Virus record (IMG/VR): IMGVR_UViG_3300013006_000114
Coordinates: 1 to 26,677 of that record
Strand: one strand, 5' to 3'
Length of the DNA stretch: 26,677 nucleotides
From: a virus
Shown here piece after piece: positions 1 to 26,677 of the stretch. How positions within the stretch are numbered: position 1 is the stretch's first letter; every line of letters starts with the position of its first letter. The position numbers and the translations under genes are program-made. Below the pieces are notes generated by a model, which worked only from the letters and a program-made list of their open reading frames with translations, ran no database searches and was not told where the DNA came from.

Positions 1-3000
1 AACAAACAAGTCACCAGTCAATACAGTGTTTGCGCTGCGAATTGTAGTGTTGCCAGAAGTAGATCCAATGTTAACGTTAGCAGAGCCGCCAAGTTCTAGA
101 GTTGTTGCAGTGTTATTCGCTAACGTGAATGTTGTTGCTGTACTAAAGATGTCGCCACCGTTGACGAAGAGTTCACCAGACAATACCGTATTCGATGAAC
201 GGATTACAGTGTTGCCAGTTGTTGCGCCAATCAAGACAGAAGTTGCTGCGCCACCAACACTGAGTGTAGTTGCGGTTGTGTTCGCTACAGTGAATGTAGT
301 GTTTGTGGTAGTGATGTTACTACCGTTGACTGCTAGATCGCCAGTTAAAGATGCGATACCTACAGAAATACCGTCTGAGCTTTGGAATGCCATTGAACCC
401 AAATACTGATTCAAAGGAATCTGATTTGGATTCATACCAATATCGTACTGAGAAGCTACTGCCCATTGTTGACCGTTAGCTGTTTCAGTGATAGTTCCGT
501 TAGCAGTAAAGTTGCCGTTTACAATAGTGTTTGAAGAACGGATGAAAGTATTGCCAGAAGAGTTGCCAATCAATACGTTAGAAGTTGCACCAGCACCTAG
601 CCATAAAGTTGTTGCTGTAGTGTTTGCTACAGTTAGTGTTGTTGCAGTAGTGCCAATGTCACCGCCGTTGACGTTCAAATCACCTAGCAAGTTGACAGTA
701 GCATTACGAATTGTAGCAATGCCTGTAGCTGCACCCATGTTCAATGTAGTAGCAGCACCAGCAAATTCTAATGAAGTAGTTACTGAGTTAGCTAGTGCAA
801 ATGTTGCTGCCGCAACTAATGCACTTCCTGCTAAAGTAACAGTAGCGTTACGAATTGTTGCTGTGCCTGTCGTTGCACCAAGCATTAGATCAGTAGCGGC
901 ACCACCAACGCGAACCGAAGTTGCTGTTGTGTTCGCTACAGTAAATGTTGTTTGGTTAGTTGCAATGTCACCACCGTTAACGTTCAAATCACCATCTAAT
1001 GTTACTGTTGCATTGCGAATTGTTGCTGTGCCTGTTGTTGCACCAAGCATTAGATCAGTAGCAGCACCACCAACACGGACTGAAGTTGCAGTAGTGTTTG
1101 CTAGAGTAAAGGTTGTCGCTGAAGTTGTAATGTCACCACCATTAACAGCGATATCACCTGGAGTAATGATACTCTTATTAATATCGAACGAATCGGAAGC
1201 GGATAGATAAACTACGTTAGCATTCGATCCTGCAATAGTGATGCCAGCACCGTTTGCTGCTGCATTATCCGCAGCCCCGTCTGCAATAATAATATTCTTA
1301 TCATCAACGCTCAGTGTTGTTGAGTTGATGATTGTAGTGCTGCCGTTAACTGTTAAGTTACCACCAATAATTGTGTTTCCAGTTATGATAGCATTTGCAG
1401 AACGGATTGTGGTGTTGCCAGAAGTAGAGCCAATGTTAACGTTAGCTGCGCCACCAAGTTCTAAAGTTGTTGCAGTTGTGTTTGCTAGAGTGAATGTATT
1501 TGCAGTTGTTGTAATACCGCCACCATTAACTGCTACGTTTGCTGTGTAAGTTGTATTACCAGTAATTGTTTGAGTTCCAGCTACATTCAAATTGCCTACA
1601 ATACCTACACCACCAGCTACAGTCAATGCGCCAGTAGTACTATTTGCCGAAGCTGTAGTTTGAAGAATTGCAAATTTAGTCGCATCCATCTGCGCTACTT
1701 CAAAGCTTGTTGCACCGTTTGCAGTATAGAAGTGAAGTGTATCGTCAGAAGCTCCAGGAGAAGTTTCTGCAATGATGTATGTCAAGCCGTCTACAGATTT
1801 TACACCACCAAGACTTGACCAGTTTGTGCCATCGTAGCCTTCGTATGCAGAAAGTTGTGTGTTGTATCTGACTTCACCTTGTGATGCTGTTCCGCGTTGG
1901 ATTGTATTGCCTACTGGAACACGCAATGCGCCTGTGCTATTAATAACTGCTTTGTTGTTATTAATAGTGAATGTGCCGCTGTTTGCAGCACCCATATTAA
2001 TCGAAGTCGCAGCACCACCGATGTTAAGTGTTGTTGATGTAGCATTAGCAATTGAGAACGATGTTGTGTTTGTAGTAATCGAAGGTCCAGCAACAACTAA
2101 TGAGCCAGTTCCAGTATTCAATCGAACATCACCTGAGGTGTATTCAATTTTGATTCTTTCTGAACCTTGAAGTTGAATGTAGAAGTTGCTATTGTCGTTC
2201 TGGTTTATGAATCCGCCAGAAGAATTTCCTACAAGAACTAATCTACCTGAAGTTAGTGTACTTCCATTGTCTAAGACTTTAAAGTTATTTCTAACTGTAG
2301 TGTTGCCTGTAGCAGCACCGAGATTCAATGTGGTAGCTGCACCACCAATTTCTAATGTTGTTGTTACTGTGTTGGCAAGATTCAATGATGCAGTTGTTCC
2401 TACAATATCACCACCAGAAACAAACAAGTCGCCAGAAATAACAGTGCCTGCGTTTCTGATTGTTGTGTTGCCTGTAGTAGCACCAATGGTAACGCTAGCT
2501 GCACCACCGATGCTAAGTGTTGTCGCTGTAGAGTTTGCTACAGTGAATGTTGTCGCTGAAGTCGTAATGTCTCCACCGTTGACTGCTAAGTCACCATCAA
2601 TAATTGTGTTTCCAGTTATGCTAGCATTTGCACTACGAATTACAGTATTGCCCGAAGTAGCACCAATGTTAACGTTAGCTGCGCCACCAATGTTTAGTGT
2701 TGTTGCTGTAGTGTTTGCTAAAGTAAACGTTGCTGATGTGGTATTAATGTCTCCACCGTTGACGAATAGTTTACCAGTCAATACCGTGTTGGCAGAGTTA
2801 ATTGTTGTATTTCCTGAAGTCGAGCCAATGTTTACGTTAGCTGCGCCGCCAAGACTCAATGTTGTTGCAGTAGTATTTGCAATTGTGAAAATAGTATTAG
2901 TTGTTGTAATACCACCACCATTGACTGCTACGTTTGCAGTGAATGTGCCATCTGTGCTTGTTAAGCCAGTAACCTGTAGTGCATTTCTAATCGTCGTTGT

Positions 3001-4446
3001 GCCAGTAGTAGCACCAAGCATCAAGTCCGTAGCAGCACCACCTAAGCGGACTGAAGTTGCTGTAGTGTTTGCTACGTTAAACGTTGTTGCACTAGTACTA
3101 ATGTCTCCACCATTGACGTTTAAGTCGCCATCTAGTGTTACTGTTGAGTTTCTAATCGTTGCAGTGCCTGTAGCAGCACCAATCAAGACTGATGTAGCCG
3201 CGCCGCCGATGTTAAATGTTGTTGCTGTGGAGTTTGCTACTGTAAATGTTGTTGCAGTAGTGCCAATGTCACCACCGTTAACGTTCAAGTCGCCAACAAG
3301 CACTGTAGATGCATTTCTAATCGTTAACGTACCAGTAGAAGCGCCAATCAAGACTGAAGTTGCAGCACCACCAACGCTAAGTGTTGTTGCTGTTGTATTT
3401 GCTAGAGTAAAAGTAGTTTGATTAGTGCTGATGTCTCCACCGTTGACTGCTAGATCACCGTCTAGAACAGTGCTTGCATTCCTAATAGTTGCGGTGCCCG
3501 TAGAAGCGCCAAGCATCAAGTCTGTGGCAGCACCACCAACGCGAACTGAAGTTGCTGTTGTATTTGCAAGAGTAAATGTTGTTGCTGTAGTAAAGATATC
3601 ACCACCATTAACAAACAATTCGCCTGACAATACAGTGTTTGCAGAACGGATCGAAGTGTTGCCAGTTGTGGTGCCAAGATTCAAAGTAGTAGCTGCACCA
3701 CCAATTTCTAATGTTGTTGCTGTTGTATTTGCTAGAGTGAAAGTAGTTTGATTAGTGCTGATGTCTCCACCGTTAACACTTAAGTCACCAACAAGAATTG
3801 TAGACGCATTGCGAATTGTAGCCACGCCAGTTGTTGCACCAAGTGTCAAGTCTGTTGCTGCACCACCTAAGCGAACTGAAGTTGCTGTAGTGTTTGCTAC
3901 GTTGAATGTTGTTGCACTAGTACCGATGTCGCCGCCGTTGACATTCAAGTCGCCATCTAGCGTTACTGTTGCGTTTCTAATCGTTGCAATACCAGTAGCA
4001 GCACCAATCAATACAGAAGTTGCAGCGCCACCGACACTTAATGTTGTTGCTGTTGCGTTTGCTACGTTGAATGTTGTTGCTGAAGTTGTAATGTCTCCGC
4101 CGTTGACTGCTAAGTCACCAACAAGAACTGTAGATGCATTTCTAATTGTAGCAGTGCCAGTTGTTGCGCCAAGCATTAGATCAGTAGCACCACCACCAAT
4201 ACGGACTGAAGTTGCTGTTGTATTTGCAAGAGTAAATGTTGTCGAGTTAGTGGTAATATCTCCACCCTGGATGGCAGCATCACCATAAACCGTCAATGTA
4301 GTGACATTTATAGTTGCACTATTTGCGCTACTTAAAATAAGGTTAGCAGTTCCATCAAGCTGCGAATTGACATTAGCAATAATCAGATTAGTAATTGCTC
4401 TAAACTGATTAAATGTATTTGATGATTGAACGGTTTGAATCGGCAT
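1..4446 (-). CDS. giant repeat tail fibre protein (3' end outside window)
   Basis: Probable long tail fibre or peripheral appendage acting at the virion surface. I checked every triplet of this frame: it runs from the ATG at 4446 to base 1 with no stop (1482 codons, C-terminus missing). The ATG directly follows the TAA of the preceding gene. After a roughly 60-residue N-terminus the protein is built of about twenty repeats of about 55 residues around a VNGGDI core, with a GGAAT-LMLGATTG-ATIRNA pattern. The array is interrupted by modules I recognise from marine T4-like phage fibres: QRGTASQGEVRYN near residue 855, VDDKNI followed by a GAGIT stretch near 1050, and PNQIPLNQYLG near 1345. Repeats plus these modules support a fibre. 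The receptor-binding tip, if present, lies beyond the window. The frame is sure; the fibre role is inferred from composition and position. Confidence 0.85.
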   Translation of the reverse strand, partial: MPIQTVQSSNTFNQFRAITNLIIANVNSQLDGTANLILSSANSATINVTTLTVYGDAAIQGGDITTNSTTFTLANTTATSVRIGGGATDLMLGATTGTATIRNASTVLVGDLAVNGGDITTSATTFNVANATATTLSVGGAATSVLIGAATGIATIRNATVTLDGDLNVNGGDIGTSATTFNVANTTATSVRLGGAATDLTLGATTGVATIRNASTILVGDLSVNGGDISTNQTTFTLANTTATTLEIGGAATTLNLGTTTGNTSIRSANTVLSGELFVNGGDIFTTATTFTLANTTATSVRVGGAATDLMLGASTGTATIRNASTVLDGDLAVNGGDISTNQTTFTLANTTATTLSVGGAATSVLIGASTGTLTIRNASTVLVGDLNVNGGDIGTTATTFTVANSTATTFNIGGAATSVLIGAATGTATIRNSTVTLDGDLNVNGGDISTSATTFNVANTTATSVRLGGAATDLMLGATTGTTTIRNALQVTGLTSTDGTFTANVAVNGGGITTTNTIFTIANTTATTLSLGGAANVNIGSTSGNTTINSANTVLTGKLFVNGGDINTTSATFTLANTTATTLNIGGAANVNIGATSGNTVIRSANASITGNTIIDGDLAVNGGDITTSATTFTVANSTATTLSIGGAASVTIGATTGNTTIRNAGTVISGDLFVSGGDIVGTTASLNLANTVTTTLEIGGAATTLNLGAATGNTTVRNNFKVLDNGSTLTSGRLVLVGNSSGGFINQNDNSNFYIQLQGSERIKIEYTSGDVRLNTGTGSLVVAGPSITTNTTSFSIANATSTTLNIGGAATSINMGAANSGTFTINNNKAVINSTGALRVPVGNTIQRGTASQGEVRYNTQLSAYEGYDGTNWSSLGGVKSVDGLTYIIAETSPGASDDTLHFYTANGATSFEVAQMDATKFAILQTTASANSTTGALTVAGGVGIVGNLNVAGTQTITGNTTYTANVAVNGGGITTTANTFTLANTTATTLELGGAANVNIGSTSGNTTIRSANAIITGNTIIGGNLTVNGSTTIINSTTLSVDDKNIIIADGAADNAAANGAGITIAGSNANVVYLSASDSFDINKSIITPGDIAVNGGDITTSATTFTLANTTATSVRVGGAATDLMLGATTGTATIRNATVTLDGDLNVNGGDIATNQTTFTVANTTATSVRVGGAATDLMLGATTGTATIRNATVTLAGSALVAAATFALANSVTTSLEFAGAATTLNMGAATGIATIRNATVNLLGDLNVNGGDIGTTATTLTVANTTATTLWLGAGATSNVLIGNSSGNTFIRSSNTIVNGNFTANGTITETANGQQWAVASQYDIGMNPNQIPLNQYLGSMAFQSSDGISVGIASLTGDLAVNGSNITTTNTTFTVANTTATTLSVGGAATSVLIGATTGNTVIRSSNTVLSGELFVNGGDIFSTATTFTLANNTATTLELGGSANVNIGSTSGNTTIRSANTVLTGDLFV
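120..4270 (-). repeat. 165-bp (55-residue) coding tandem repeats in the tail fibre
   Basis: The aspartate/asparagine codon of the VNGGD-type core recurs at 4258, 4093, 3928, 3763, 3598, 3433, 3268 and 3103, seven intervals of exactly 165 bases. It then appears at 2911, 2749, 2569 and 2407 (192, 162, 180 and 162), and again at 1132, 967, 658, 316 and 151. Degenerate units lie near 2080, 1516 and 820. Some stretches are nearly identical at DNA level: about 60 bases at 3383-3445 match those at 3713-3775 (two units apart) with only two differences seen. Units are otherwise mosaic. Confidence 0.85.
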
Positions 4447-17353: not shown

Positions 17354-19075
17354 TTATCCCTTGAGTTTATTATAAAATGTTGCTGTTTTGCCAAATACTT
17401 TCATTAGGAATATCATAGCCTTTCTAGGCAGAAATTCTTTCTCTCTTTTAATCGTACTTGCCATAATTTTAACGATTGGTTTGTATGTCACATATCCAAA
17501 CACCTTGTTGAATAGATACGATCCATATGTCATGCCTTGAGTAGTGAATTCGCGCATTAGTTTCACAATATCATCTTGTGATAGATATCCGTTCTGATAA
17601 CAAACTCGCATAATTCCACCGTCCATCATGATCGATGTAGTACCAAAGCCATTGACTATATATGTACCATCGCCACTGACCCATAGGTTATATACTAACT
17701 CATCTTCAGTCTTGCGAGTAATTGGATTCTTAACTGGTTTAACTTTATCTAGCCAAGGATAAAGCCCTTGCTCTAGGGCTACCCATTCACCATTTATAAA
17801 CAGTGGATGATTAGGTGTTGCGAATGGCGCAAATTCAGCACTCGGTGAATACAATTCTTGCCAGTTATATTTATCTGGAACTATTTCAATGAAAAGCACT
17901 GTATTCACTTCAGTTCTATTCATGTTGAACACATAGTCGCCGTCTTTAATTTGATCGATACGTTTTTTTGATCCGTCAAACATAGTGACAAGTGTTTCTC
18001 CTAAGAAACAATCTGCGCCGCCGCTGCCGCCTCCGTCACCCAGCTCCGTAGCACCTGGCGTCAAAAGAACAAAATTGCCGTTTTCGTCAGTATAGCCTTC
18101 ACCCGATTCGACAATTCCTGGATCAACTATTACTGCATTAATAGGAGGTGTGATAAATGTTGTTTTAATTACTTTCGCATCAGGAGGAAAAACAGTATTC
18201 ATCAAAAGTCTAACATCACGAACTAAGTTTACAGTATCATAGCCGACACCACCTTCTAGTGCGTTTGACTCTGATGCTGAAGGATGATAGTATTCTATTG
18301 TATCACCTCCAACAGTTATTGGAGAAGGACGATTATCAGATCCAATCGCTTGTCTCGCTCCTAATGTGACTGTGCCATATCCAGGCAGATTAACAGTCGT
18401 GTTTGCGAGTGCAGATTTTAATCTAAATGTATTTTCCTCTGAAGTGGATAAAATTTTACCCTGAGCAAATACTCCTATATCCCAATCTCTTAAGACAGCA
18501 CCGTTTTCGTTGATCGATATACCTCTTCTCTGATTCGATGTGCTTGGTGTTAGAACAATACTACCTTTTGATAGAACTAATGTTGATGTACTACCGTGTG
18601 TGATAGCTATAGGATTATCGACAGCAGTGTCATTGATCATTTCAAATGAATTTCCACAAGACTGTTCAAATCTAAATCTATCTTTTTGTGAATCAACACT
18701 ATTTAATATATTTGATACGGTGTTGAAAGACCGCACAGTAGAAATCTGTTCTGAAAATCTTTCTTTAATGTCTGTAGGTATAGTTCCCGGAGGAATTCCA
18801 GGAATATATCCGAGAATGCATGGCTCTTGTGCATCTTCGCCGTCTAAGAAAAATCCAATAACCCAATCACCAAGATTGGGTATGCCATATGCGCCAGGCA
18901 TATTTGCTGGCATTAATGTAATTGCCCAAGGAAGATCAGCAGTAGGCATTTCTCCTGTGCTTGCATTATCATGATAACCAAAAATTCTAACTTTAGCTCT
19001 GCCCAGGATCAATGGGTCTTGGTTGTATTCAACAACACCAATCCACCATATGAATCCGTCTCTACCTAAAAACAT
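17354..19075 (-). CDS. gp5-like baseplate hub protein with C-terminal Hint domain
   Basis: Central hub/spike protein of 573 residues. Residues 1-100 look like the gp5 OB-fold (FIWWIGVVEYNQDPLILGRAKVRIFG, with NLGDWVIGFFLDG at 67-79). Residues of about 130-280 are beta-rich (GNSFEMIND, GSTSTLVLSKGSIVL), as in spike-stem regions. T4 gp5 has a lysozyme after the OB-fold; none is seen here. After a Gly-rich linker ending GGSGGAD, Cys356 opens a Hint domain: CFLGETLVTMFDG (block A), KRIDQIKDGDYVF, TPNHPLFINGEW at 420-431 (block B, T420 and H423), and VYNLWVSGDGTYIVNGFG at 461-478. The usual C-terminal His-Asn is missing, and about 90 further residues follow. Autocleavage at Cys356 is plausible by analogy; it is not shown. 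Neighbours (gp27-like, gp53, gp25) agree with a hub role. Confidence 0.85.
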   Translation of the reverse strand: MFLGRDGFIWWIGVVEYNQDPLILGRAKVRIFGYHDNASTGEMPTADLPWAITLMPANMPGAYGIPNLGDWVIGFFLDGEDAQEPCILGYIPGIPPGTIPTDIKERFSEQISTVRSFNTVSNILNSVDSQKDRFRFEQSCGNSFEMINDTAVDNPIAITHGSTSTLVLSKGSIVLTPSTSNQRRGISINENGAVLRDWDIGVFAQGKILSTSEENTFRLKSALANTTVNLPGYGTVTLGARQAIGSDNRPSPITVGGDTIEYYHPSASESNALEGGVGYDTVNLVRDVRLLMNTVFPPDAKVIKTTFITPPINAVIVDPGIVESGEGYTDENGNFVLLTPGATELGDGGGSGGADCFLGETLVTMFDGSKKRIDQIKDGDYVFNMNRTEVNTVLFIEIVPDKYNWQELYSPSAEFAPFATPNHPLFINGEWVALEQGLYPWLDKVKPVKNPITRKTEDELVYNLWVSGDGTYIVNGFGTTSIMMDGGIMRVCYQNGYLSQDDIVKLMREFTTQGMTYGSYLFNKVFGYVTYKPIVKIMASTIKREKEFLPRKAMIFLMKVFGKTATFYNKLKG

Positions 19076-23710: not shown

Positions 23711-24298
23711 ATGACAATATTCAAAGAACTCATATATCAAGGCATTCAAGCTGGTCAAGTACCCGCCAGAACGGCTGAGGCTAGAGAATGGTACCGAGAT
23801 GCTGCTAGTCAGTTATCTGGGCTAACTACATCTAAAGTAATGAAATCTTTTGAGCAAAAAAGAAAAGTTGCTCATTTACATCCTGGAATGATGTATCTTT
23901 TCAAATATGATCCAAAATTAAAGATGGAACTGCCGTATTACGATACGTTTCCTTTAATATTTCCTGTAGAACTTCATAAAGATGGCTTCTTGGGTATTAA
24001 CTTTCACTATTTGCCGCCAATGCTTCGTGCAAAACTAATGAATGCAATATACTCTACTGTAATGGATAAGAAATACGATGAGCATACTAAGATAAAGATT
24101 AGTTATAGTGTACTAAAAGCTGCGTCTAAATATAAAGAGTATAAACCGACTATAAAAAAGTACTTATACAATCATGTAAAATCGCCATTCTTAGAAATAA
24201 CTTCTGTCGAATGGGATATAGCACTATTTTTACCAATAGAAAAGTTTAAAAAAGCAACTGCGCAACAAGTTTGGGCAGACAGCAGAAAGAAAATCTAA
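23711..24298 (+). CDS. probable T4 gp2-like DNA end protector / head-tail completion protein
   Basis: Protein of 195 residues. HPGMMYLFKYDPKLK (about 57-71), PYYDTFPLIFPVE (75-87), FLGINFHYLPPMLRAKLMNAI (93-113) and EWDIALFLPIEKF (166-178) form a pattern I recall from proteins annotated as DNA end protector (gp2) in marine T4-like phages. Its place next to gp4 mirrors T4, where gene 2 precedes gene 4. gp2 protects the packaged DNA end from host RecBCD. The alternative is gp3, the tail completion and sheath stabiliser, encoded nearby in T4; I cannot separate these by eye. The start has no strong Shine-Dalgarno. Its TAA overlaps the next ATG by one base (TAATG), so the two are coupled. Confidence 0.65.
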   Translation: MTIFKELIYQGIQAGQVPARTAEAREWYRDAASQLSGLTTSKVMKSFEQKRKVAHLHPGMMYLFKYDPKLKMELPYYDTFPLIFPVELHKDGFLGINFHYLPPMLRAKLMNAIYSTVMDKKYDEHTKIKISYSVLKAASKYKEYKPTIKKYLYNHVKSPFLEITSVEWDIALFLPIEKFKKATAQQVWADSRKKI

Positions 24299-24951
24299 TG
24301 TTTAGTATATCAACTTTTGCTGCGTTAGTAAAACCAGTAAGACCTAATCTCTTCTTTGTAGAGATTAGTCTTCCACCAAAAATATTTAACAATCAAAATA
24401 GACAATACATAAGAGGCAGTGCAAATATAAATAATATTAATCAATCTTGGTTTACTGAGCTTCCGTTAAGTGAAACAAATGATGTAAATCCTAGATTTAG
24501 ATGTAGATGTGAAGCTACAGAATTGCCTGGCAGAACAATTGCCACCTCTGATGATACTACAGCATTCGGACCAAATGCGAAATTTGCATACGATCATACA
24601 TATTCAGATCATAATCTTCAAATTATTGCTTCAGAAGATATGTATGAAAGAAGAGTATTTGAAGTGTGGATGGACAATATTGTGAATGGTCCGGATGAAT
24701 ATGGCGCCGCCGCAAGTAAATCTGGACTCATAAGATATTATGATGATTATGCTGCTGGAGAAGTTAGAATTCATCAAATGAATGAACAGGGTGTGACATT
24801 GGCTAAATACACGCTAATGAATGCATATCCAATCGCACTGAGTCCTATGAACTTAACATGGGAAGAACAGAATACGTACCAAAGATTTAGTGTCACAATG
24901 ACATATCGATATCATATAGTGAATTTTAATAATTCGACAAATACTATATAA
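24298..24951 (+). CDS. tail-tube-fold protein (gp19/gp54-like)
   Basis: Tail-tube-type protein of 217 residues. RPNLFFVEISLPP (19-31), FRCRCEATELPGRTIAT (about 67-83), YDHTYSDHNLQIIASED, RRVFEVWMDNIVN, and the final LSPMNLTWEEQNTYQRFSVTMTYRYH follow the tube-fold pattern of T4 gp19. It is longer than gp19 (163) and shorter than the tube initiator gp54 (about 320). Its place beside baseplate and hub genes favours a gp54-like tube initiator, but a main tube protein cannot be excluded. I chose the ATG at 24298, which overlaps the preceding stop (TAATG), over an in-frame ATG at 24271 that lies inside the previous gene. A GCC-rich Ala stretch is present near 24705. Confidence 0.75.
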   Translation: MFSISTFAALVKPVRPNLFFVEISLPPKIFNNQNRQYIRGSANINNINQSWFTELPLSETNDVNPRFRCRCEATELPGRTIATSDDTTAFGPNAKFAYDHTYSDHNLQIIASEDMYERRVFEVWMDNIVNGPDEYGAAASKSGLIRYYDDYAAGEVRIHQMNEQGVTLAKYTLMNAYPIALSPMNLTWEEQNTYQRFSVTMTYRYHIVNFNNSTNTI

Positions 24952-24983: not shown

Positions 24984-25724
24984 ATGGCTTTACCTAAAAT
25001 TAAATCGCCAATTTTTGAATTGACTTTACCATCAAACGGAGTACCCGTTAAATACAGACCTTTCTTAGTTAAGGAACAAAAACTATTACTTATGGCACTT
25101 GAGAGTGAAGAGCCTACAGAAATGTTTAGAGCAATTAAGCAGATTATTAATAACTGTGCAGTTGATGATATTGAAGTAGACGATATGCCTATGTTCGATT
25201 TAGAATATTTCTTCTTGAAGCTTAGAGCAAAATCAATTGGAGAAATTATCGACATTCAACTTCGTCATCCAAATGGCATTAACTCTGACGGCGTAGAATG
25301 CACGCATGCAACACCAACAAAATTGAACTTGATGGATGTTGACGTGATTAAAGATCCAAAACATAATTTAAAAATTATGTTAGATGAGGAGTCTAAGATT
25401 GGTATTGTATTGAAATATCCTACAGTATCTTTGTCTGCAAAGACTGCTGTAGGTAAAGATCAATCTCAAATGGATACAATTGTTGATATTGTTGCTAACA
25501 GTATTGATTATATCTTTGATGCAGAGGCTGTATATCCAGCTTCAGAATCTTCTAAGGCTGAACTTCAAACTTTCGTTAACGATTTGAATCAAGAACAGTT
25601 TGCAAAGTTGACAGAATTCTTTAACACTATTCCAAAACTAAAGCACACTTTTGATTGGAAATGTTCTAAGTGTGGATGTAAAGAACACGTTGAACTTGAG
25701 GGTATGACAAGTTTTTTCGGTTAA
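24984..25724 (+). CDS. gp26: gp26-like baseplate hub/assembly protein (T4_baseplate family)
   Basis: Baseplate hub assembly protein of 246 residues (T4 gp26 is 208). It begins LPKIKSPIFELTLPSNGVPVKYRPFLVKEQKLLLMA, read in parts, the characteristic start of the T4_baseplate family, followed by AIKQIINNC and DLEYFFLKLRAKSIGE. The C-terminus has a CxxCxC with a nearby His (Cys227, Cys230, Cys232, His235) that may bind zinc, and ends GMTSFFG. GGAG lies 10 bases before the ATG. The Phe-Phe codons near the end form a T_TTT_TTC heptamer in frame, followed by a stem-loop and by an ORF in the -1 frame, so part of the product may be extended to about 315 residues by frameshifting. In other tails an assembly chaperone made in two forms this way sits just before the tape measure, as here. 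Confidence 0.85.
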   Translation: MALPKIKSPIFELTLPSNGVPVKYRPFLVKEQKLLLMALESEEPTEMFRAIKQIINNCAVDDIEVDDMPMFDLEYFFLKLRAKSIGEIIDIQLRHPNGINSDGVECTHATPTKLNLMDVDVIKDPKHNLKIMLDEESKIGIVLKYPTVSLSAKTAVGKDQSQMDTIVDIVANSIDYIFDAEAVYPASESSKAELQTFVNDLNQEQFAKLTEFFNTIPKLKHTFDWKCSKCGCKEHVELEGMTSFFG

Positions 25725-25767
25725 GTTTGTCGAATGATAACTTAATCAATCATTATAAGACAAACTT
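25712..25767 (+). promoter_or_regulatory. candidate programmed -1 frameshift site with stem-loop
   Basis: The heptamer T_TTT_TTC (25712-25718) is in the gp26 frame, two codons before its TAA. After 4 bases comes a perfect 9-bp stem (25723-25731 with 25759-25767), then after an asymmetric internal loop a second 6-bp stem (25733-25738 with 25749-25754) closing a 10-base loop. The gp26 stop and the only candidate start codon of the next ORF (TTG at 25727) both lie in the stem. A -1 slip continues as Arg-Leu-Ser-Leu into the downstream ORF. All elements are seen directly; slippage itself is inferred. Confidence 0.7.
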
Positions 25768-25930
25768 TGCGTTGATACAGCATCATAAATACAGTTTAAC
25801 TGAACTAGAAGAAATGATGCCTTTTGAGAGGGAAATATACGTTACATTACTCGCACAGTTTATCAAAGAAGAATCTGATAGACAAAGAGAGAATGAAAAC
25901 AAACAAAAATCTAGGTCTTCAAGAAGATAA
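25719..25930 (+). CDS. small ORF in the gp51 position, probably made by -1 frameshift from gp26
   Basis: A frame of about 70 codons ending at TAA 25928-25930. It has no ATG before an internal Met-Met, and its only start-like codon is TTG at 25727, without a Shine-Dalgarno and buried in a hairpin; read from there it would be 67 residues. The product contains HHKYSLTELEEMMPFEREIYVTLL, read in parts, and ends in a strongly charged tail (QRENENKQKSRSSRR). The order gp26 then this ORF matches T4 genes 26 and 51, and the size resembles small hub-assembly factors; sequence similarity to gp51 is not visible by eye. I think it is mainly the C-terminal extension of the gp26-like protein. The reported range begins where a frameshifted ribosome enters this frame. 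Confidence 0.65.
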
Positions 25931-25951: not shown

Positions 25952-26677
25952 ATGGCTGATCTAACATCTAAACTTGCTGATAGTATAAAAAAATCAGTGT
26001 CAGGCTTTGGTGCAGGCATAAAGGCAGCTTTTATGTCTGCTAATCCTGCGGGCTTTGGACTTGCTATGAAAGGCATTCAAAGTGCGTTAGATAGTCAAGT
26101 TTCACTACAAAGAAGAGATTTCGAACAACGCCTACATGATAGACAGTTTGCAGAAGAAAACTCTAATGAGCAAATGAGAATAACTAGCGATATGCTAGGT
26201 ACTCTACACAGTATTGACGACACTCTTAAGAAAATACTTGCGCTTAGTTTAAATAATGTAAACAAAGACAAAGTTGAAGATTCTATTTTAAAGAAACTTT
26301 TAAATTCAGTATTACCTGCCGGCGCCGCCGCCAAAGTCGCCGGCGCCGCCGCCAAAGCAGCAGACGCATTAGCCGACAATAAGAAAACAAAAACATTTTT
26401 TGATACTTTAGTTGATATATTTAAAGGACTTAAAGAGTCTTTATTGGCAGGCATTAAGAACCTAATTAAATTCTTCAAAGAACTGCCAGACAATTTAATG
26501 GCAGGCATTAAGAACCTAATTAAATTCTTCAAAGAACTGCCAGACAATTTAATGGCAGGCATTAAGAACCTAATTAAATTCTTCAAAGAATTGCCAGTCA
26601 ATGTAATAGAAGGATTTAAGAACCTGATTAAATTCTTTACAGAATTACCTGGCAGATTGTTTAAAGGATTTAGTGCA
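25952..26677 (+). CDS. probable tail tape-measure protein, N-terminal part (runs off the window)
   Basis: Open from the ATG at 25952 to the last base (242 codons, no stop). The N-terminus is helical (KLADSIKKSVSGFGAGIKAAF), then comes a charged coiled-coil-like region (SLQRRDFEQRLHDRQFAEEN, about 51-70), an Ala-rich segment with a duplicated AGAAAK, and from residue 164 four amphipathic 18-residue repeats (AGIKNLIKFFKELPDN core). Long helical repeats right after the gp26-type chaperone are what a tape measure shows, so a role like T4 gp29 in setting tail length is likely. A phage-coded lytic or hub protein is the alternative. AGAG about 6 bases before the ATG is a weak ribosome binding site. 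Confidence 0.65.
   Translation, partial: MADLTSKLADSIKKSVSGFGAGIKAAFMSANPAGFGLAMKGIQSALDSQVSLQRRDFEQRLHDRQFAEENSNEQMRITSDMLGTLHSIDDTLKKILALSLNNVNKDKVEDSILKKLLNSVLPAGAAAKVAGAAAKAADALADNKKTKTFFDTLVDIFKGLKESLLAGIKNLIKFFKELPDNLMAGIKNLIKFFKELPDNLMAGIKNLIKFFKELPVNVIEGFKNLIKFFTELPGRLFKGFSA
26318..26357 (+). repeat. GC-rich 19-bp direct repeat in the tape-measure gene
   Basis: A 19-bp word of GCC/GGC codons ending in CAAAG occurs at 26318-26336 and again at 26339-26357, 21 bases apart, encoding a duplicated AGAAAK heptad-like unit. It stands out from the AT-rich surroundings. Confidence 0.8.
26441..26677 (+). repeat. 54-bp tandem repeats (18 residues) in the tape-measure gene
   Basis: Units at 26441-26494, 26495-26548, 26549-26602 and 26603-26656, with the start of a fifth at 26657. 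The first three differ at only a few bases over 54; the fourth is more diverged. They keep the reading frame and encode an amphipathic helix ending in a Pro turn. Confidence 0.9.

Follow-up and report, generated by a model that had tools for sequence, protein, structure and literature searches.

Frameshifting in tail assembly chaperone genes is familiar from lambda (G/GT), HK97 and P2 (E/E+E′), and is reportedly described by Xu, Hendrix and Duda (2004). Lambda slips at GGGAAAG, and dnaX, which slips at AAAAAAG, gives a shorter product by its shift. The tail assembly chaperones of T4-like phages are said to have been identified by Vladimirov, Gautam and Davidson (2022). Here we consider a locus of this kind in a virus record from IMG/VR (IMGVR_UViG_3300013006_000114), a linear sequence of 26,677 bases with tail genes at its right end, which is referred to at its full length as the window. 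In this locus a gene for a gp26-like protein is followed by an open reading frame (ORF) at the gp51 position, lying in the −1 frame. Comparison with related phages makes it very likely that the two are joined by a programmed −1 frameshift at T_TTT_TTC, which would yield a short and a long chaperone.

In place of frameshifting, according to the PRFect paper (PMC10885494, citing Vladimirov, Gautam and Davidson 2022), certain T4-like phages have a short gene along with a longer, fused one; poly-T −1 signals in T4-like chaperone genes are credited to Vladimirov 2022 in a 2025 paper (PMC12846349). The chaperone of Vandenendeviridae and Andersonviridae treated in the 2025 paper resembles the present one in that the short form carries a conserved poly-T motif (GTTTTT) at its 3′ end, the −1 frame is open and the phages are contractile-tailed, but it belongs to other phage families. 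The initial annotation of the window knew of no report for T4-like phages, a statement overtaken by the 2022 study, which, to judge from its title and the papers citing it, had already named these chaperones. The chaperone identity is already published, and the window holds a further member of a known system; the slip signal in T4-like chaperone genes has probably been published as well. The breadth across lineages, the restart in Ackermannviridae and the upstream element described below were not found in the literature searched, which is weak evidence from a limited collection.

Anatomy of the probable slip site

The elements that would take part in the frameshift are the following.

24984–25724, + strand: gp26-like gene, short unshifted form, 246 residues (PF12322 T4_baseplate, 1.3e-59; phrog_150, 1.1e-65)
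25712–25718, + strand: slippery heptamer T_TTT_TTC, from the sequence; T6N present in 169 of the 196 distinct relatives
25722–25724, + strand: TAA stop of the unshifted frame, from the sequence
25718–25930, + strand: −1 frame extension, gp51 family, 70 codons plus stop (phrog_634, 4.3e-27; phrog_150 positions 235–278)

The gp26-like protein matches PF12322, the family of T4 gp26 and gp51, with 201.9 bits against a curated cut-off of 24.5. Its coding sequence ends with AGT TTT TTC GGT TAA, and a direct read thus bears out the in-frame heptamer that had been annotated two codons before the stop. The heptamer is in X_XXY_YYZ phase in the unshifted frame and overlaps an open −1 frame, the arrangement of programmed −1 frameshift signals. 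The −1 ORF runs from 25718 to 25927 with its stop at 25928–25930. Its first ATG is codon 33, and as annotated initially it has no properly placed Shine-Dalgarno sequence, although the claim of a single TTG was wrong, because in-frame TTG codons lie both at 25727, within a predicted stem, and at 25772, just beyond its 3′ arm. Bare heptamers of this type are common by themselves (four in the window against 9.7 expected); the fixed place and phase of this one in 169 of 196 relatives, always with an open −1 frame, is not a matter of chance.

In the model proposed here, most ribosomes would stop at TAA 25722 and release the short gp26-like form of 246 residues, and a fraction would shift back by one base at T_TTT_TTC and translate about 70 further codons to give a long gp26-gp51 fusion of about 315 residues. 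If lambda G/GT is a guide, the tape measure protein would be coated by the short domain, and the extension would serve to connect that domain with the tail tube subunit in tail or baseplate-hub assembly. We infer the slippage itself, its rate, its stimulators and the chaperone function.

Conservation of the heptamer and the −1 frame

Matches to the gp26-like protein were found in 899 phage records and, by tblastn, matches to the −1 ORF in 523. The junction sequence was inspected at 219 loci taken from GenBank and IMG/VR, which gave 196 distinct family ORFs. An in-frame T6N heptamer is situated 7–16 nt before the stop in 169 of the 196 ORFs (TTTTTTC in 147, TTTTTTT in 21 and TTTTTTG in one), and in all complete cases among these 169 the −1 frame is open for 55–69 codons beyond the stop. 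Clustering of these heptamer-bearing ORFs by protein identity yielded 54 groups at 70% and 20 groups at 50%. The hosts of heptamer-bearing phages include cyanobacteria, Caulobacter (Cr30), Sinorhizobium (phiN3), Rhizobium, Agrobacterium, Stenotrophomonas, Pseudomonas (Milchi), Vibrio (VH7D) and Aeromonas (phiAS5). The frameshift proposed in the initial annotation is therefore supported by the heptamer, its phase, the open −1 frame and the conservation of heptamer and frame together at the junction in related phages.

A run of T at this place might also be a mere codon-biased encoding of a conserved Phe-Phe end, with gp51 made by another route, since almost all gp26 C-termini have Phe-Phe and AT-rich genomes are frequent among these phages. 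In all 54 heptamer-bearing clusters at 70% TTT encodes the first Phe and the codon before Phe-Phe has T as its last base, as the definition of the heptamer requires at this site; the background in the same genes is 62% TTT among Phe codons and 71% T-ending codons for Asn, Ser and Asp. With the five Ackermannviridae counted as failures, the binomial values are about 1e-14 at 70% clustering and 6e-6 at 50%, to be taken as a guide and not as exact probabilities because the sequences are related. Codon bias is harder to reconcile with the encoding of Phe-Phe as TTT-TTC, which accounts for 147 of 169 Phe-Phe pairs at the site but for only 20 of 186 at other places in these genes. Moreover, the preceding T is also fixed, and this holds even for the BUCT608 locus, which looks GC-rich; the −1 frame is open in every case; and T4 gp26, which lacks a −1 extension, reads TTC TTT and has no heptamer. 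Codon bias is scarcely credible as the explanation, and a frameshift at the heptamer accounts for these features better.

Restart as an alternative, and relatives without the heptamer

The conserved gp51 sequence starts directly behind the heptamer, and in nearly all single-copy relatives homology extends right up to the heptamer. In 33 of the 54 clusters the first ATG of the −1 frame is at least 13 codons after the heptamer, inside conserved sequence. On this comparison the conserved feature is the heptamer and not a start codon, which argues against translational coupling, whereby ribosomes stopping at TAA 25722 would restart nearby, at TTG 25727 or 25772, and make free gp51 without any fusion. 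In the window itself there is no ATG at that place, the first TTG is in the predicted stem and Shine-Dalgarno sequence is lacking at a proper distance; in T4, gp51 is a fusion. Coupling does have observations on its side, and two of them weigh against the frameshift: 19 of the 54 clusters have an ATG no more than four codons from the heptamer, and in five Ackermannviridae the −1 ORF persists although the heptamer is missing, that ORF starting at a TAATG overlap in four of them. In addition, gp51 appears as a gene of its own in GenBank records. Restart in place of a frameshift is very unlikely overall, although it could add free gp51 in the 19 clusters because of the nearby ATG.

The 27 ORFs without a heptamer comprise 21 T4-type gp26 and gp51 sequences, the five Ackermannviridae and one fused ORF. 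The fifth of the Ackermannviridae, Salmonella phage SFP10 (Kuttervirus; L095, 2305–2470), has TAATT instead of TAATG, and its −1 ORF is kept but unannotated. A scan of IMG/VR with the query K445 (Ackermannviridae) found no relatives. The fused ORF is from a Stenotrophomonas phage (L091; IMGVR_UViG_2974778117, around position 2247), which has five T where its near-identical siblings L005 and L090 have six, so that gp26 and gp51 are in one frame; the shorter run is either a real variant or a sequencing error.

Possible stimulatory elements

Two elements flanking the heptamer may stimulate slippage in the window.

25723–25767, + strand: predicted stem-loop, possible stimulator, lineage-specific (9 bp + 6 bp; −13.0 kcal/mol, z −2.64)
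25698–25702, + strand: GAGGG, Shine-Dalgarno-like, possible upstream stimulator, ending 9 nt before the heptamer

After a 4-nt spacer (25719–25722), AAGTTTGTC (25723–25731) pairs perfectly over 9 bp with GACAAACTT (25759–25767), and within this stem AATGAT (25733–25738) and ATCATT (25749–25754) form an inner stem of 6 bp. The spacer and both stems are thus as first annotated. Folding agrees with them in part: the segment 25719–25775 alone gives the energy and z score listed above, with 3 of 200 shuffles equally good, whereas the wider stretch around the hairpin reaches a z score of only −1.69.

The comparison with relatives weighs against this side of the frameshift reading. The arms of the hairpin are kept only in L008 and L009, which are 88–99% identical to the window, and in relatives of 65% identity or less the hairpin is absent, with no covariation, so that the covarying pairs proposed as a check in the initial annotation did not appear; as a conserved stimulator the hairpin is rejected beyond the closest relatives. 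Folding after the heptamer in general is only modestly above that of controls, with a mean z score of −1.07 compared with −0.06 to −0.40, and with z below −2 in 25% of clusters compared with 6–12% at control positions. The hairpins found there differ from lineage to lineage; that of S-PM2 has 14 bp.

Many relatives at about 55–65% identity have GGAGGG at the place corresponding to GAGGG, ending about 9 nt before the heptamer, and the window has a weaker TGAGGG. GAG is used for 29 of 59 Glu codons at the upstream element and for 286 of 1277 elsewhere in the gene (p 1.2e-5). A similar Shine-Dalgarno-like stretch is found about 9–10 nt upstream of the heptamer in dnaX, where the slip occurs at a different heptamer and the shifted product is shorter, not longer as it would be here; in the present family the likeness is confined to a subset of relatives. 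Because pairing energies do not generally exceed those of synonymous shuffles (median rank 0.41), the upstream element is a lead only. A universal Shine-Dalgarno stimulator is rejected, since only a subset carries the element and the median cluster does no better than synonymous shuffles.

Gene order and predicted fold

The genes on both sides of the gp26-like gene and its extension are as follows.

24271–24951, + strand: tail tube protein gene (phrog_45, 2.7e-38; ORF listed from TTG, protein searched from 24298)
25952–26677, + strand: probable tape measure gene, running off the window (weak phrog tape-measure matches; 54-bp tandem repeat)

The order tail tube, gp26, gp51, tape measure places two ORFs between the tail tube and tape measure genes. 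That the gene behind gp51 resembles a tape measure, as the initial annotation had it, agrees with the weak phrog matches and with its counterpart in the relative L013, which matches the tape measure family phrog_58 (9.4e-20). The probable tape measure gene contains a 54-bp tandem repeat at 26440–26644 (3.8 copies, 92% matches), and a 21-bp Ala-rich repeat is located at 26318–26357.

An AlphaFold2 model of gp26 built from 35 sequences (mean predicted local distance difference test score 89.9) points in the same direction as the gene order. The N-terminal 90 residues of the model match 3FGX (Z 8.2), the HK97 tail assembly chaperone 2OB9 (Z 7.4) and YqbN 3KLU (Z 7.3), followed by a protein of a phage-inducible chromosomal island-like element (Z 5.9) and then by unrelated chains at 2.7 or less. 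On the other side of the balance, the first Foldseek match of the model is the HK97 chaperone with an E value of only 0.57, and Z values of 7–8 can be reached by unrelated models, values below 8 being compatible with a merely common arrangement. Sequence searches for solved chaperones or their relatives found none, a search of NCBIfam gave no match, and the slip sequence T_TTT_TT(C/T) differs from the GGGAAAG of lambda; the predicted N-terminal fold is like that of the HK97 chaperone 2OB9. Gene order and modelled fold together support the chaperone reading, which the fold alone would not prove, and a tail assembly chaperone function of the gp26/gp51 pair is likely. The equivalence to the chaperone pair of long-tailed phages that was suggested initially is supported on these two grounds.

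Elsewhere in the window, the − strand at 17354–19075 encodes a protein of 573 residues whose C-terminal part gives a weak match to a Hint/Vint-type domain (PF14623, 1.6e-5, slightly under the cut-off). An open ORF of at least 1482 residues on the − strand at 1–4446 has many diverged repeats (NGGDI..TTFTLANTTATSVRVGGAATDL...IRN) and is probably a tail or fibre protein; the long ORFs on the strand opposite to it look spurious.

The two-gene arrangement of T4

In phrog_150, positions 5–232 match the gp26-like protein of the window and positions 235–278 match the −1 product, and a single profile that spans both halves suggests that the two are fused in some phages. In T4, where genes 26 and 51 are on opposite strands and lack the heptamer, gp26 fills PF12322 and ends at position 235 of phrog_150, which is the end of the short form in the window. 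T4 gp51 spans positions 13–280 of phrog_150 and also matches phrog_634. The two T4 proteins and the window product belong to one protein family over the whole length, and gp51 extends beyond the end of gp26 in a segment corresponding to the −1 product (29% identity over 56 residues, E 2e-5 in a single comparison). T4 has two copies of PF12322, and the 17 other genomes examined (12 with the heptamer and the five Ackermannviridae) have one copy each. Because of this colinearity and these copy numbers, T4 gp26 corresponds to the short form and gp51 to the long form in one continuous gene. Short and long products that share an N-terminal domain are thus predicted by the anatomy of the window and are seen in T4 as two genes, whereas relatives with a single copy have one gene with a slip site, and so does the window over the length available.

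A passage in the literature lists T4 gp26 and gp51 as hub assembly chaperones, gp51 being absent from the final particle and the place of gp26 in the hub disputed (PMC3004832). Homologues of T4 gp51 are found in 1339 phage records. In a family tree, T4-type gp26 and gp51 fall into two groups; the tree, which has long branches and no outgroup, does not settle whether the frameshift or the two genes came first.

Implications for T4-like phages

Tentatively, and at somewhat less than even probability, we suggest that the chaperone locus of T4-like phages has switched its mode of expression, with one gene and a −1 slip site as the common state, the two genes 26 and 51 in T4 and its close relatives, and a stop-restart overlap in Ackermannviridae after loss of the slip site. 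The stimulators may have alternated between the upstream Shine-Dalgarno-like element and lineage-specific hairpins.

The occurrence of gp51 as a tiny gene without a convincing start in many T4-like phages would be explained in that it is very probably an extension of gp26, which database records list as a separate or shortened gene. The comparison also gives an evolutionary frame to the T4 pair gp26 and gp51, for which the part played in hub assembly had long seemed unclear (PMC3004832), and it lets one-gene, two-gene and restart solutions to one problem be compared readily.
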